Assembly (NCBI GenBank): GCA_027071355.1
Contig: JALSUJ010000461.1
Coordinates: 50,345-114,344, forward strand
Direction of reading: 5' to 3'
DNA length: 64,000 nucleotides
Origin: Gammaproteobacteria bacterium
GTDB taxonomy: Bacteria; Pseudomonadota; Gammaproteobacteria; GRL18
A program made the position numbers and the translations under genes. Position 1 is the first letter of the stretch. Each line of letters begins with the position of its first letter. A model generated the notes under the pieces. The model did not search any database and was not told the DNA's origin. It saw only the letters and a list, made by a program, of their open reading frames with translations. Of this stretch, positions 33,804 through 49,232 are shown in pieces.

Positions 33804-33840
33804 GAGAAACCAGCCCATTGGGTGGTATCCCCAATGGGTA
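33804..33840 (-). promoter_or_regulatory. Leader pseudoknot of the GHKL gene (leader family copy)
   Basis: Stem CCCATTGGG/CCCAATGGG (33830-33838 with 33814-33822). Loop segment GATACC (minus strand, 33829-33824) can pair with GGTTTC just 3' of the stem (5 of 6). The 3' segment TTTCTC can pair with GAGGAA of the ribosome site. Confidence 0.6.
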
Positions 33841-33896
33841 ATGCATCGATTGATGCGTAAGTAAATATGAGTCAAACTGCTCAAAAATAAGCAGTC

Positions 33897-33951
33897 CTGG
33901 ATATCACACGACTCAGGATCCAGTTAATTGTGCTGGTTTTTGGCCTCAGCA
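33897..33951 (-). ncRNA. Two-hairpin upstream module (copy A) before the GHKL leader
   Basis: On the minus strand: hairpin TGCTG...CAGCA around AGGCCAAAAAC (33951-33931), then a 6-bp stem CTGGAT/ATCCAG (33923-33918 with 33902-33897) enclosing the conserved 15-nt loop (here CCTGAGTCGTGTGAT). Confidence 0.6.
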
Positions 33952-33999
33952 GGCACATTCAATCAGCCTTCAGGCTTTTTCAAAACATATCAGGCTTTG

Positions 34000-34022
34000 A
34001 AAAAGCCTCTCCGAAGAGAGGC
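34000..34022 (-). terminator. Rho-independent terminator
   Basis: Minus-strand GCCTCTC-TTCG-GAGAGGC followed by TTTTT, 9 bp after the stop of the zinc-ribbon gene. The T-run is also the 5' arm of a second stem (CTTTTTCAAA with TTTTGAAAAAG, down to about 33972). Confidence 0.85.
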
Positions 34023-34030
34023 GTAATACA

Positions 34031-34267
34031 TCAAAAACAACCACAGGTGATGAGTTGGCCGCCACATCGAGGACAACGCTCAATGTCACAACCTGGATGA
34101 TGGAGGCCACCATCGGAGACATTACAGTCTCCGCAACGAGTAACTCCATCATACGACACATACGGTATCGCCCTCAGTGTAACCCCATCTGGATACTCAA
34201 CCTCATGCTTGCAGCTCACGGCTTTTGCAGAAGTCATTTCCTGCAAGCACACATCACAGACTGCCAT
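34031..34267 (-). CDS. Small double zinc-ribbon protein
   Basis: 78 residues from ATG 34267 (AGGAGG site 9 nt upstream). Cysteine pairs: CDVC (residues 4-7), CGDC, CDIERCPRCGG and CGC, suggesting two zinc ribbons. It overlaps the end of its upstream neighbour and is followed by a strong terminator. Probably nucleic-acid or protein binding. Confidence 0.65.
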   Translation of the reverse strand: MAVCDVCLQEMTSAKAVSCKHEVEYPDGVTLRAIPYVSYDGVTRCGDCNVSDGGLHHPGCDIERCPRCGGQLITCGCF

Positions 34268-34628
34268 GATCGTCATCCTCCTTAATTGCCTTAAATACCT
34301 GGTCGATATTTAGTGTTTCGGATGATTCTCGATAAACAGTGATGCCAGCACTAGCATAGGCAAGAGCCGTTCCACCACCTCCTTGTGGGATCTCAACCAT
34401 ATCCTCCTCATCTCCATGATTGTCATACTCCACAAAGGCCACTTCAATATCATCACAAACAAAATTAGCCAAGGTGGTTTGATAAATACCGTTCTCCATA
34501 ACAATAATCATCTTTCTGTTTTCAGGAGGCTGTTTACACAAGAGGTCTTCTTGATCCAAGACCTGTAACAACGTATTAACAGCCATGCCAGCTGCCGTGG
34601 AAGCCGCTATCTTTTCAACATCAGACAA
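34254..34628 (-). CDS. Hypothetical acidic protein, start uncertain
   Basis: 124 residues from TTG 34628. The frame stays open upstream to 34683 (reading LLTLWGENLTEVWNWINGLSD) without ATG, GTG or TTG, so the true start may be an atypical codon there. Content: AASTAAGMAVNTLLQVLDQE, a Gly-rich EIPQGGGGTALAYA, and an acidic C-terminus. No family recognised. Confidence 0.5.
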   Translation of the reverse strand: MSDVEKIAASTAAGMAVNTLLQVLDQEDLLCKQPPENRKMIIVMENGIYQTTLANFVCDDIEVAFVEYDNHGDEEDMVEIPQGGGGTALAYASAGITVYRESSETLNIDQVFKAIKEDDDHGSL

Positions 34629-34692
34629 TCCGTTTATCCAGTTCCAGACCTCCGTTAGGTTTTCTCCCCACAGGGTTAATAATTAAAAATAC

Positions 34693-34878
34693 TTAATCGA
34701 GATCCTCTTCAGCTAAAAAAACATAGCCACAATCTACGTTTAAGCATTGATGCTTTTGTGCGCCAGAATCCATTTCAATAAAAGAAGTTCTGGATCCACA
34801 TTTTCCACATGTCATTGGTTGATCATGTAATAAGTAGCAATCTAAATCATTGTCAGATTTGGATTTTTTCTTATTCAA
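34693..34878 (-). CDS. Small zinc-ribbon protein (Ogr/Delta-like size)
   Basis: 61 residues starting at TTG 34878 with an AGGTG site. MTCGKCGSRTSFIEMDSG then HQCLNVDCGYVF gives CxxC...CxxxxC, the pattern of Ogr/Delta-type zinc fingers that act as small transcription activators in phages (resemblance by eye). Preceded by one of the repeated leaders. Confidence 0.6.
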   Translation of the reverse strand: MNKKKSKSDNDLDCYLLHDQPMTCGKCGSRTSFIEMDSGAQKHQCLNVDCGYVFLAEEDLD

Positions 34879-34903
34879 AATATTTCACCTCGCTTTAAAA
34901 TTA

Positions 34904-34946
34904 AGGAAAATATTGACCCTAATGGGAAAATATTTCCCATTAGGGT
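34904..34946 (-). promoter_or_regulatory. Leader hairpin of the small zinc-ribbon gene (leader family copy)
   Basis: A perfect 14-bp stem (34916-34929 with 34933-34946, ACCCTAATGGGAAA on the plus strand). The AAATATT segment of the stem/loop can pair alternatively with AATATTT directly 3' of the hairpin; GAAATATTTT recurs at the ribosome site. Confidence 0.6.
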
Positions 34947-34968
34947 TAAATGAAAATCTATGAATCCA

Positions 34969-48592: not shown

Positions 48593-48595
48593 TTA

Positions 48596-48664
48596 AGACC
48601 TCCTTGCGGTCACTTGCATGAATGTTAAGGAGGTCTACGCCCGTCTGGGAGTAAATCTCCCAGA
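48596..48664 (-). promoter_or_regulatory. Leader pseudoknot upstream of 48401-48592, with 10-bp anti-ribosome-site
   Basis: Stem TCTGGGAG/CTCCCAGA (48644-48651, 48657-48664). Loop GATTTAC pairs with GTAGACC (6 of 7). AGACCTCCTT (48636-48627) is exactly complementary to the ribosome site AAGGAGGTCT (48605-48596). Confidence 0.8.
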
Positions 48665-48694
48665 GGGGGTGGATTAAAAGATTCCGAAGAACCC

Positions 48695-48770
48695 GCAGAG
48701 AATTTCATTAATCCAGGCTCTGCTTTAGGGTTGCCTGATACCGTCAGGCAGCGGTTACTAATTCATAGTT
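48695..48770 (-). ncRNA. Two-hairpin upstream module (copy I)
   Basis: Minus strand: hairpin TGCCTGA/TCAGGCA, then stem GCAGAG/CTCTGC (48718-48723 with 48695-48700) around CCTGGATTAATGAAATT. The loop here is 2 nt longer than usual. Confidence 0.55.
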
Positions 48771-48847
48771 TAGTCAAAATTAACTTAGCAGACAACTGTC
48801 TTTTTTATTAGTTGTATATTAGTGTTTATTAATTTAAAGAATCCTGT

Positions 48848-48878
48848 AAAAACCGGCACAAAGACCAATTGTGCCGGT
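48848..48878 (-). terminator. Rho-independent terminator
   Basis: Minus-strand ACCGGCACAA/TTGTGCCGGT stem followed by TTTTT, 5 bp after the stop of the 29-residue gene. Confidence 0.85.
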
Positions 48879-48882
48879 CAGT

Positions 48883-48972
48883 TTATCGCCTGGTCGGAAT
48901 CACAACAGCGGCAGCTGTAACCACCACAATCATCAATTCATACACCAGAACAACGTCCGCCATCGTATCCAT
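48883..48972 (-). CDS. Tiny membrane protein, 29 residues
   Basis: ATG 48972 (MDTMADVVLVYELMIVVVTA) has AGAGG 8 nt upstream. Almost the whole chain is one hydrophobic helix ending in PTRR. A terminator follows immediately, and a long hairpin precedes it, so it sits in its own small expression unit. Confidence 0.55.
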   Translation of the reverse strand: MDTMADVVLVYELMIVVVTAAAVVIPTRR

Positions 48973-49005
48973 ATTCATTTCCTCTTAGAAGATATTCAGA
49001 ATCAA

Positions 49006-49061
49006 GGCTGGGAGCCTTCCTCCAGGACTTTTAACAAAGCCTTCGAGGAAGACCCCCAGCC
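49006..49061 (-). promoter_or_regulatory. Long leader hairpin upstream of the 29-residue gene
   Basis: GGCTGGG..TCTTCCTC pairs with GAGGAAG..CTCCCAGCC, with an inner AGGCTTT/AAAGTCCT stem. A longer variant of the leaders in this region. Confidence 0.5.
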
Positions 49062-49088
49062 AGGCTGAGAATCATTCCAAATCAGAAA

Positions 49089-49160
49089 TTAGCCACTTAT
49101 CGCCAATCCAGCACAAACACTCGATGTAGCAAAAGCGAAAATGAGACCGATAGTAAACAT
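49089..49160 (-). CDS. Tiny membrane peptide, 23 residues
   Basis: ATG 49160 has GGAG upstream. MFTIGLIFAFATSSVCAGLA is one hydrophobic helix. Very short, but it has a leader of the same kind as its neighbours, whose 3' segment pairs perfectly with this gene's ribosome site, which argues that it is translated. Confidence 0.55.
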   Translation of the reverse strand: MFTIGLIFAFATSSVCAGLAISG

Positions 49161-49232
49161 GGTATTTCTCCAGTTTGAATGAAAAAACTGCGAGAAATAC
49201 CATTCCTATGGGAAAGTATTTCCCACAGGGAT
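49161..49232 (-). promoter_or_regulatory. Leader pseudoknot upstream of the 23-residue gene (clearest copy)
   Basis: Stem 49202-49215 with 49219-49232. Loop GAAATACT (49222-49215) pairs with GGTATTTC (49201-49194), 7 bp plus one G-U. The same GGTATTTC pairs perfectly over 8 bp with GAAATACC (49168-49161) just before the ATG. Confidence 0.8.

Follow-up and report, generated by a model that had tools for sequence, protein, structure and literature searches.

Nearly every gene of a minus-strand module between 33.8 and 49.2 kb of the window (the whole 64,000-nucleotide stretch of gammaproteobacterial DNA under analysis) is preceded by a structured leader in which one segment, b', is complementary both to the loop (b) of an upstream hairpin and to the ribosome-binding site (RBS) of its own gene. 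We suggest that such leaders are bistable and gate translation gene by gene, with b' shared by loop and RBS; based on predicted folds, this proposal stands, in our judgment, evenly between acceptance and doubt. More firmly established by the sequences are three potential helices (hairpin A, or a:a'; hairpin B, or b:b'; helix C, or b':RBS), their copy-specificity, the overlap of A with B and the recurrence of the design in related elements.

The leader set was defined by hand and comprises 19 minus-strand leaders, which bears out an earlier sequence-only reading of at least 16 genes with a reiterated structured leader; the b and b' strings quoted there are exact at their coordinates in ten cases out of ten. 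Its description of the upstream hairpin as ACCC-N-GGG...CCC-N-GGGT holds in part: hairpin A is present in 19/19 leaders, the strict C3..G3..C3..G3 pattern in only 13. Over a larger set, this pattern was found in 98 of 126 leaders vs 5/58 control genes and 3/24 controls with intergenic gaps, and the nucleotide A precedes the first C3 in 79 of the 98 pattern-bearing leaders. The structure z-score of the region -90..-20 averages -4.53 in the window vs -0.56 for the 58 control genes and -1.18 for a subset of 24 whose intergenic gaps reach 60 nt or more. In many cases the leader fills the intergenic gap. A de novo scan of the window for the full architecture returned 16 minus-strand start codons, all within 33-50 kb and 9 of them coinciding with hand-chosen starts, vs 4 on the plus strand. 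The same kind of scan was noisy in related loci (648 vs 330 on the two strands at one threshold) and was left out of the proof.

All three helices, with energies from folds given here in the order A, B, C and in kcal/mol, occur on the minus strand at 49158..49229 (hairpin A, loop b, b', RBS and ATG; -14.8, -14.8, -22.7), 48590..48663 (-10.7, -16.6, -17.6, C being 10 contiguous pairs), 48182..48271 (DUF3577 gene, design shared with 5 orthologues; -15.7, -20.7, -23.1), 45321..45391 (DUF3275 gene; -21.1, -16.2, -11.4), 44700..44771 (RadC-domain gene; -16.3, -17.1, -8.5), 44093..44158 (-17.9, -13.1, -8.5), 42095..42168 (-19.4, -16.0, -11.4), 41108..41178 (DUF6573 gene, B followed by A-T7; -18.7, -21.2, -11.6), 38086..38152 (-16.0, -19.2, -11.3), 37333..37405 (SNF2-type helicase gene; -22.4, -20.8, -13.1), 34876..34947 (TTG start; -21.0, -14.9, -5.7) and 33768..33839 (-16.4, -13.1, -10.5). 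Two further A/B/C leaders have a long additional hairpin separating b' and RBS: 46645..46785 (A -20.1, B -17.0) and 46153..46303 (A -13.6, B -21.4), the latter with B followed by T5 and thus terminator-like. At least four window leaders are weak in B or C. The loop-to-b' helix is missing from the fold at 45813 (leader 45811..45882; strong A -17.8, weak C -7.4) and not clear at 43793 (43791..43855; A -18.7, C -13.3), it is weak at 41776 (41774..41852; A -22.9, B -12.4, C -12.9), and C is very weak in 38660..38727 (A -20.2, B -15.1, C -1.9). Some b:b' pairing is present in 18 of the 19. The remaining one, at ATG 43451 upstream of a DUF6094 gene (43449..43504; A -17.8, B -1.2, C 0), is a terminator-like hairpin with neither b:b' nor b':RBS pairing.

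Pairing between loop and b' is specific to each copy. The loop pairs with its own downstream segment at -12.06 kcal/mol and with segments of other leaders at -6.88, none of 20,000 permutations being as good; when leader 43451 is omitted, the values are -12.40 vs -7.49 (z -8.1). As a folded hairpin, b:b' of window leaders reaches -15.40 with own and -10.63 with swapped b' (z -9.5), in agreement with the earlier claim that pairing is kept while sequence varies between copies, and own b' ranks first or second among the 19 in only 12 leaders. Among 105 leaders collected from three sets (19 window, 52 helicase, 34 plasmid), B exceeds the threshold in 72% with own and 20% with swapped partners. For the 76 of the 105 with b:b' over threshold, scored equally for G-U and A-C, both types were counted: 88 G-U and 17 A-C in own pairs vs 216 and 116 in swapped ones (Fisher p 2e-4). 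This excess assigns the pairing to RNA of the coding strand, here the minus strand, as the sequence-only reading had held.

The second partner of b' is the RBS. Helix C is likewise copy-specific (own -11.39 vs swapped -7.48, z -6.3, 18 window leaders), so that one strand matches both RBS and an upstream partner in the manner of a two-state element that sequesters the RBS. Fixed windows (-52..-22 vs -20..+4) gave z -4.6 for 19 window leaders and -2.7 for 49 annotated plasmid genes, vs -0.1 for the 58 control genes and -0.2 for the 24 gapped ones. C exceeds the threshold in 82% of the 105 leaders with own and 36% with swapped partners. Three comparisons were not significant: pairing of loop b with the RBS, which served as non-complementary control (p 0.06), C in the plasmid set with a wide upstream segment (p 0.064), and the G-U excess for C (p 0.44).

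The design recurs at orthologous genes on beta- and gammaproteobacterial elements, including pKLC102. Upstream of orthologues of the helicase gene, the pattern is found in 52 of 59 distinct sequences. An alignment of 35 helicase leaders contains compensatory changes that maintain all three helices, although the consensus structures came from a vote among folds of these very rows, which biases the following values in their favour: B has 78.8% of cells paired and a covariation of 0.339 (shuffles 0.208, sd 0.017; best slid 0.234), C 57.7% and 0.230 (shuffles 0.161, best slid 0.201), and A 67.6% and 0.205 (shuffles 0.147, best slid 0.181), A being paired no more than after a one-column slide (67.9%). 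The best supported of the three is b:b'. Six DUF3577 genes from 6 elements have A of -14.0 to -20.3, B of -17.1 to -23.3 and C of -16.6 to -19.7 kcal/mol. The six leader sequences differ, and A, B and C can be drawn in each. Both the complementarity of b' to its own RBS and the presence of the same leaders on many other conjugative elements had been missed by the sequence-only reading.

In the model we favour, hairpin A forms in the first state, b' is left free and would pair with the RBS, blocking translation. In the second state b' would pair with b, and the resulting hairpin B, exclusive of A and C, would leave the RBS open. Because A plus C is the predicted ground state and A and B are similar in energy in the window (medians -17.9 and -16.0; differing by no more than 5 kcal/mol in 11 of the 19 leaders), the default of window leaders is likely OFF. 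Removal of b' in silico is predicted to open the Shine-Dalgarno sequence by more than 0.3 in 8/19 window, 18/52 helicase and 17/34 plasmid leaders; removal of a like stretch does so in 10/24 gapped control genes, some of which possibly contain leaders themselves (10 of the 24 come from L089, where radC RNA and leaders occur outside the assigned module). Dependence of RBS openness on b' thus did not exceed the control level. With b' present, median predicted openness is 0.18 (window), 0.02 (helicase) and 0.24 (plasmid) vs 0.31 in controls. The failed openness test lowered our confidence in a translational switch from slightly above the midpoint to the midpoint.

The best surviving alternative is transcription attenuation, where B would be an intrinsic terminator ahead of each gene, A the antiterminator and C secondary, and RNA polymerase would be let through by a factor or by an RNA at the operon head (radC type, or Element I as described below). 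We consider it doubtful, yet worth keeping. A U-tract lies directly 3' of B in 28 of the 105 leaders, far over expectation (3/19 window, 18/52 helicase and 7/34 plasmid leaders; expected 0.6, 1.0 and 0.4), several helicase leaders, e.g. L053 and L012, resemble textbook terminators, and among helicase leaders B is the stabler of the two hairpins (medians -22.5 for B vs -15.7 for A), no more than 19 of 52 having them within 5 kcal/mol of each other. Operon-first leaders are preceded by radC RNA or Element I. Further, a passage of the micro-array study of ICEclc, a different element from those whose leaders were analysed, describes a transcript signal that drops from 5' to 3' (PMC2892462). However, 77 of the 105 leaders have no such U-tract, with the window contributing only three that do, and the copy-specific match of b' to the RBS, located downstream of the termination point, is left unaccounted for. 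Since the U-tract is confined to a minority, we retain termination as a general function solely among the alternatives. In that minority transcription might be terminated as well; B with its U-tract would be a possible terminator, hence OFF, and the sign of the switch would be reversed.

Leaders might also be signals of mRNA processing or stability, or might serve to insulate genes from the translation of read-through RNA, without any switching. Their strong structure (the window z-score given above), the intergenic gaps that many of them occupy, the insulation that RBS sequestration would provide by itself and the failure of predicted Shine-Dalgarno openness to tell leaders from matched controls all suit this explanation. 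A constitutive hairpin, on the other hand, has no use for the third strand b, and yet it is b:b' that the helicase alignment supports best, which makes us think it unlikely.

The sequence-only reading took the leaders for H-type pseudoknots, with A and b:b' formed at the same time. Their segments do run in the order a-b-a'-b', and b' could nucleate on the loop, but in 18 of 18 leaders with b:b' some of its pairs take bases of stem A as folded. Where pairs lie in the loop (16 leaders), b follows without a linker (0 nt), and b' is reached after 0-3 nt in 15 of them. Even under a lenient rule, applied to the helix as folded, none of the 19 is feasible with A intact. A shortened knot is conceivable; for the helix as folded we reject this part of the reading, which we consider very improbable. 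In the same 16 leaders b:b' makes an ordinary hairpin, its loop of 3-6 nt being the middle of a'; because b:b' uses stem-A bases, B is a second hairpin that excludes A. A DNA-level element, either a palindromic operator or a single-stranded-DNA promoter during transfer, would fit inverted repeats recurring upstream of many conjugative-element genes but is the least credible reading of all, given the G-U over A-C excess, on which we reject a palindrome, the fixed orientation to start codons, the RBS complementarity and promoter-like sites below shuffles (18 vs 30.9).

The proposed bistable leaders share features with several known systems. In translational riboswitches and translational attenuators of antibiotic genes, one strand alternates between the RBS and an upstream partner. 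The same alternation is proposed here, whereas we noticed no conserved aptamer-like core or leader peptide, and the switching strands are gene-specific, one module being served by many copies. In trp-type attenuators consecutive segments pair alternatively (1:2 with 3:4 vs 2:3), as successive segments of the leaders may do; the last helix of the leaders, however, covers the RBS, and a terminator-like tail is found in a minority only. In rep leaders of the IncI/IncL type, pairing of a loop with the RBS region controls translation. Stem and pseudoknot exist side by side in those leaders, on which an antisense RNA acts; loop-to-RBS-region pairing is a common trait, but b:b' in our leaders overlaps A. 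EGeRS1 of pLS20-family plasmids of Bacillus is a recurrent structured upstream region of 400-600 bp that marks a conjugative-plasmid regulon, with similar sequences upstream of operons (PMC8708921). The leaders are also recurrent structured upstream regions on a transferable element, but they are about 70 nt long, diverse in sequence, placed upstream of single genes and found in Proteobacteria. Open-licence papers, searched by title and abstract opening, contained no description of such leaders.

We infer that a single signal might reach all leaders through the common ACCC...GGG hairpin A, and opening of A or holding of B by whatever agent would turn the module on. Neither a trigger nor a trans-acting factor came to light, and Pfam scans of 28 proteins, covering part of the small ORFs, gave no known RNA-binding domain (ProQ, Hfq or other). 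CsrA is rejected as common factor, as GGA is missing from b in several leaders (e.g. 41110, 44095, 45813). A csrA gene is present on one related element (L089, 25093-25290). A conserved ligand-binding core, typical of riboswitches, was not found; loops differ, only the C3..G3 pattern is common, and no Rfam riboswitch family matches the leaders. Coupling to a terminating upstream ribosome is rejected as a general rule, the distance from upstream stop to A being too variable (8-34 nt in 10 window leaders and 90-739 nt in 9; 0-40 nt in 17/34 plasmid leaders).

If switching occurs, pKLC102-type and related conjugative elements would have an RNA layer, both element-wide and gene-by-gene, that explains joint silencing and release of many small genes; the orphan radC RNA would gain a downstream partner, and dozens of natural, sequence-diverse bistable switches would share one plan. 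The prediction lends itself readily to testing, since every helix may be disrupted and rebuilt on its own. On a larger scale, we tentatively imagine an RNA regulon, possible though not probable as a whole, with a radC-type pseudoknot RNA at the operon head, copy-specific three-strand locks by which nearly all genes are controlled individually, and one signal reading the shared ACCC hairpin, so that switching would proceed via mRNA folding and not via promoters.

An Rfam search, which the sequence-only reading had suggested, found no family matching the leaders in the window or in 17 related loci. The covariance model of radC RNA (RF01754) matched neither leaders nor Element I up to E 5. In the window, Element I, a pseudoknot of radC RNA topology, stands in the position of radC RNA, with 6/6 and 7/7 pairs in each minus-strand copy: 49235..49285, 48670..48723, 47323..47380 (no leader within 130 nt), 46796..46845, 46309..46359, 45399..45447, 42179..42229, 38175..38225 and 33868..33923. 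Strict filters yielded no copy in 56 other genomes. A pattern search of related loci returned 28 matches, vs 3-10 for four control motifs; with 14 on either strand they lack strand bias and are read as chance. On related elements, radC RNA, a listed cis-regulatory candidate, occurs upstream of operon-first leaders; it differs from them in being a separate RNA, the Rfam model stopping before hairpin A. Its matches adjoin leaders in L028, L034, L058, L072, L085 and L089, and in 14 of 17 Rfam matches radC RNA is followed by a leader. In these 17 the order S1, S2a, S1', hairpin, S2b can be drawn, most of them with good, differing S2 pairs.

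A conjugative element whose transfer system is of the GI type (TraC_PFL_4706 family) lies partly in the window, and its minus-strand module of small genes at 33-50 kb encodes DUF3577, RadC, DUF3275, DUF6094, SNF2-type helicase, DUF6573 and DUF4313 proteins. We delimited 19 leaders by hand on the minus strand, named here by start-codon coordinate. Their order is hairpin A (arms a and a') with loop b, segment b', linker, Shine-Dalgarno and start codon. The strict C3..G3..C3..G3 pattern occurs in 13 of them; in a wider collection it is found in 98/126 leaders versus 5/58 control genes and 3/24 controls with intergenic gaps, and nucleotide A precedes it in 79 of the 98. 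Upstream structure compared with shuffles gave mean z of -4.53 in the window and -2.37 for plasmid module genes, versus -0.56 for the 58 controls and -1.18 for the 24 gapped ones. In two leaders the stretch separating b' from the ribosome-binding site contains a long hairpin, nearly perfect and with similar arms (46667-46727 and 46178-46240), as though the linker had taken up a small repeat. Two copies resembling IS3-type elements lie at 31161-32380 and 39087-40306, the second within the module, between genes. Each has an ALIL match of equal score (101.6 bits), and from this pseudoknot and the paired ORFs we take the copies to be IS3-type.

The sequence-only reading had proposed that b pairs with b' in an H-type pseudoknot. 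The complementarity is real: all ten quoted b and b' strings are present at the coordinates given, and b binds its own downstream segment with mean -12.06 kcal/mol versus -6.88 for segments of other leaders, which none of 20,000 permutations matched. The folded b:b' hairpin gives -15.40 versus -10.63 when swapped (z -9.5). Exceptions are leader 43451, with neither b:b' nor b':RBS pairing, leaders 45813 and 43793, whose folds lack the loop-to-b' helix, and leader 41776, where it is weak. As folded, however, the pairs do not make a pseudoknot, since 0/19 leaders accommodate both helices; some b:b' pairs use stem-A bases in all 18 leaders having such pairs, and in the 16 with in-loop pairs no linker nucleotide precedes b (0 nt), while in 15 of them b' follows a linker of 0-3 nt. 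When these 16 are folded without the 5' arm of A, b pairs with b' as an ordinary second hairpin, B, whose loop of 3-6 nt is closed by bases of a'. This accounts for the CCC..GGG..CCC..GGG motif, whose G and C runs are each used in both A and B.

There is a third partner, overlooked in the earlier reading. Segment b' is also complementary to the ribosome-binding site of its own gene (helix C; -11.39 own versus -7.48 swapped, z -6.3, 18 leaders), with 18 pairs in the 49.2 kb copy and ten contiguous pairs in leader 48592. With fixed windows, z was -4.6 for the 19 window leaders. Five plasmids contributed 49 annotated module genes (z -2.7) and 58 control genes (-0.1), 24 of the latter with intergenic gaps (-0.2). 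Under two other definitions of the fixed windows, z was -4.3 and -3.9 (window set), -1.9 and -1.9 (plasmids), -1.3 and -0.1 (58 controls), and -1.2 and +0.5 (gapped controls); the plasmid set lost significance when the segment was widest (p 0.064).

Helices A and C are compatible, and B excludes both. We suggest, at about even confidence, that the leaders would work as two-state translational gates, closed when A and C are formed and open when B is formed. By energy rules the median advantage of A+C over B is 10.6 kcal/mol, and the default state is therefore likely OFF. Median energies of A and B are -17.9 and -16.0 in the window, within 5 kcal/mol of each other in 11/19; in helicase orthologues B is the stronger (-22.5 versus -15.7; within 5 in 19/52). 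Since hairpin A is the part common to the leaders, it would be the simplest point of action for a shared factor. The main alternative is a transcription attenuator with B as terminator. A U-tract directly follows B in 28/105 leaders, which speaks against a purely translational reading; in these B may terminate transcription, reversing the sign of the switch. Leaders are not set apart from matched controls by their predicted Shine-Dalgarno openness: without b' it rises by more than 0.3 in 8/19 window, 18/52 helicase and 17/34 plasmid leaders, and likewise in 10/24 gapped control genes, some of which may themselves carry leaders. This too speaks against a purely translational reading, and it lowered our confidence in the gate to the even level. 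Riboswitches, the trp attenuator, antibiotic-gene attenuators and IncI/IncL offer general comparisons; no description of these leaders was found in the titles or abstract openings searched.

Leaders of this design recur in related elements. From 400 helicase relatives among genome contigs 80 loci were retained and 79 examined, all but L014, which a contig end truncates, giving 62 distinct ATG starts with complete upstream sequence, or 59 once L022, L026 and L035, lacking a credible start, were removed; 52/59 bear the pattern. For covariation, 34 of the 62 picked by eye as alignable were joined by the window's own helicase leader, and the structures were voted from folds of the very rows being tested. 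Support is strongest for B (78.8% of cells paired; covariation 0.339, against 0.208 in shuffles and no more than 0.234 in slid versions), followed by C (57.7%; 0.230, 0.161 and 0.201) and A (67.6%; 0.205, 0.147 and 0.181), the paired cells of A being equalled by a slid version (67.9%). Across 105 leaders (19 window, 52 helicase and 34 plasmid, the last being those of 49 module genes left after 15 without the pattern were set aside), B passes the threshold in 72% versus 20% when swapped, and C in 82% versus 36%. The pKLC102 stretch analysed has 12 annotated genes from 6115 to 13953, and the script detects leaders at 10 of them; the leader of 13953 was recognised by eye, 12403 has none, and none was seen at five transfer-region genes from 21535 onward. 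In the other four plasmid stretches, too, leaders stand before module genes. DUF3577 genes of six elements, recognised via annotation or the first 40 residues, have A, B and C in 6/6 with differing letters. A csrA gene lies at 25093-25290 of L089, a related Enterobacter plasmid element.

The suggestion that G-U changes fit RNA held for b:b'. With equal cost for G-U and A-C, 76/105 leaders pass, and own helices contain 88 G-U and 17 A-C versus 216 and 116 in swapped ones (Fisher p 2e-4); for helix C the G-U excess is not significant (p 0.44). Judged by these base changes, the leaders appear to act as RNA rather than DNA.

Operon heads carry a further structure, Element I, of about 51 nt, in nine minus-strand copies at 49285, 48723, 47380, 46845, 46359, 45447, 42229, 38225 and 33923. 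It lies within 130 nt upstream of 8/19 window leaders, mostly operon-first ones and usually with another hairpin upstream; the ninth copy stands alone. The order is S1 (six pairs), L1 (two nt), S2 (seven pairs), a TGCAAT-like stretch of six to eight nt, S1', a hairpin and S2', with conserved CC and TGCAAT-like linkers, and by order and linker length this can be a true pseudoknot. Pairing is complete in 9/9 copies, with variation at 5/7 S2 and 6/6 S1 pairs. Element I had no Rfam match, and its model found the nine window copies and none among 56 other genomes.

Its topology appears to be that of the core of radC RNA (Rfam RF01754), an RNA named in PMC2864571. Rfam radC RNA gave 17 matches on 6/17 related loci searched and none on the other 11; on those six it takes the kind of place that Element I holds in the window, just upstream of leaders (L085 5884-6031, 6961-7111 and 9489-9626; also L028, L034, L058, L072 and L089). 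An optimising search, run without shuffled control, could draw an Element I-like S1/S2 order in 17/17 matches, poorly in L072 475, L034 3784 and L058 957. The central loop of radC RNA likely forms a pseudoknot with differing pairs, absent from the cmscan structure line. A regular expression placed the leader pattern 10-39 nt after radC RNA in 11/17; the match at L072 2742 was spurious once the sequence was read. Among the six pattern-less cases reading found a leader in four (L072 4367, L034 3784, L072 475 and L028 5705), L058 957 was doubtful and L089 896 had none, so that the final tally on reading is 14/17. Terminator-like hairpins with T-runs stand on the minus strand of the window at 38323-38306, 34022-34005 and 46467-46451, each about 80-90 nt upstream of the first stem in an Element I copy, and two of them are identical except for a single base. 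Outside the module, an oleate hydratase gene (NCBIfam) occupies 62161-63792.
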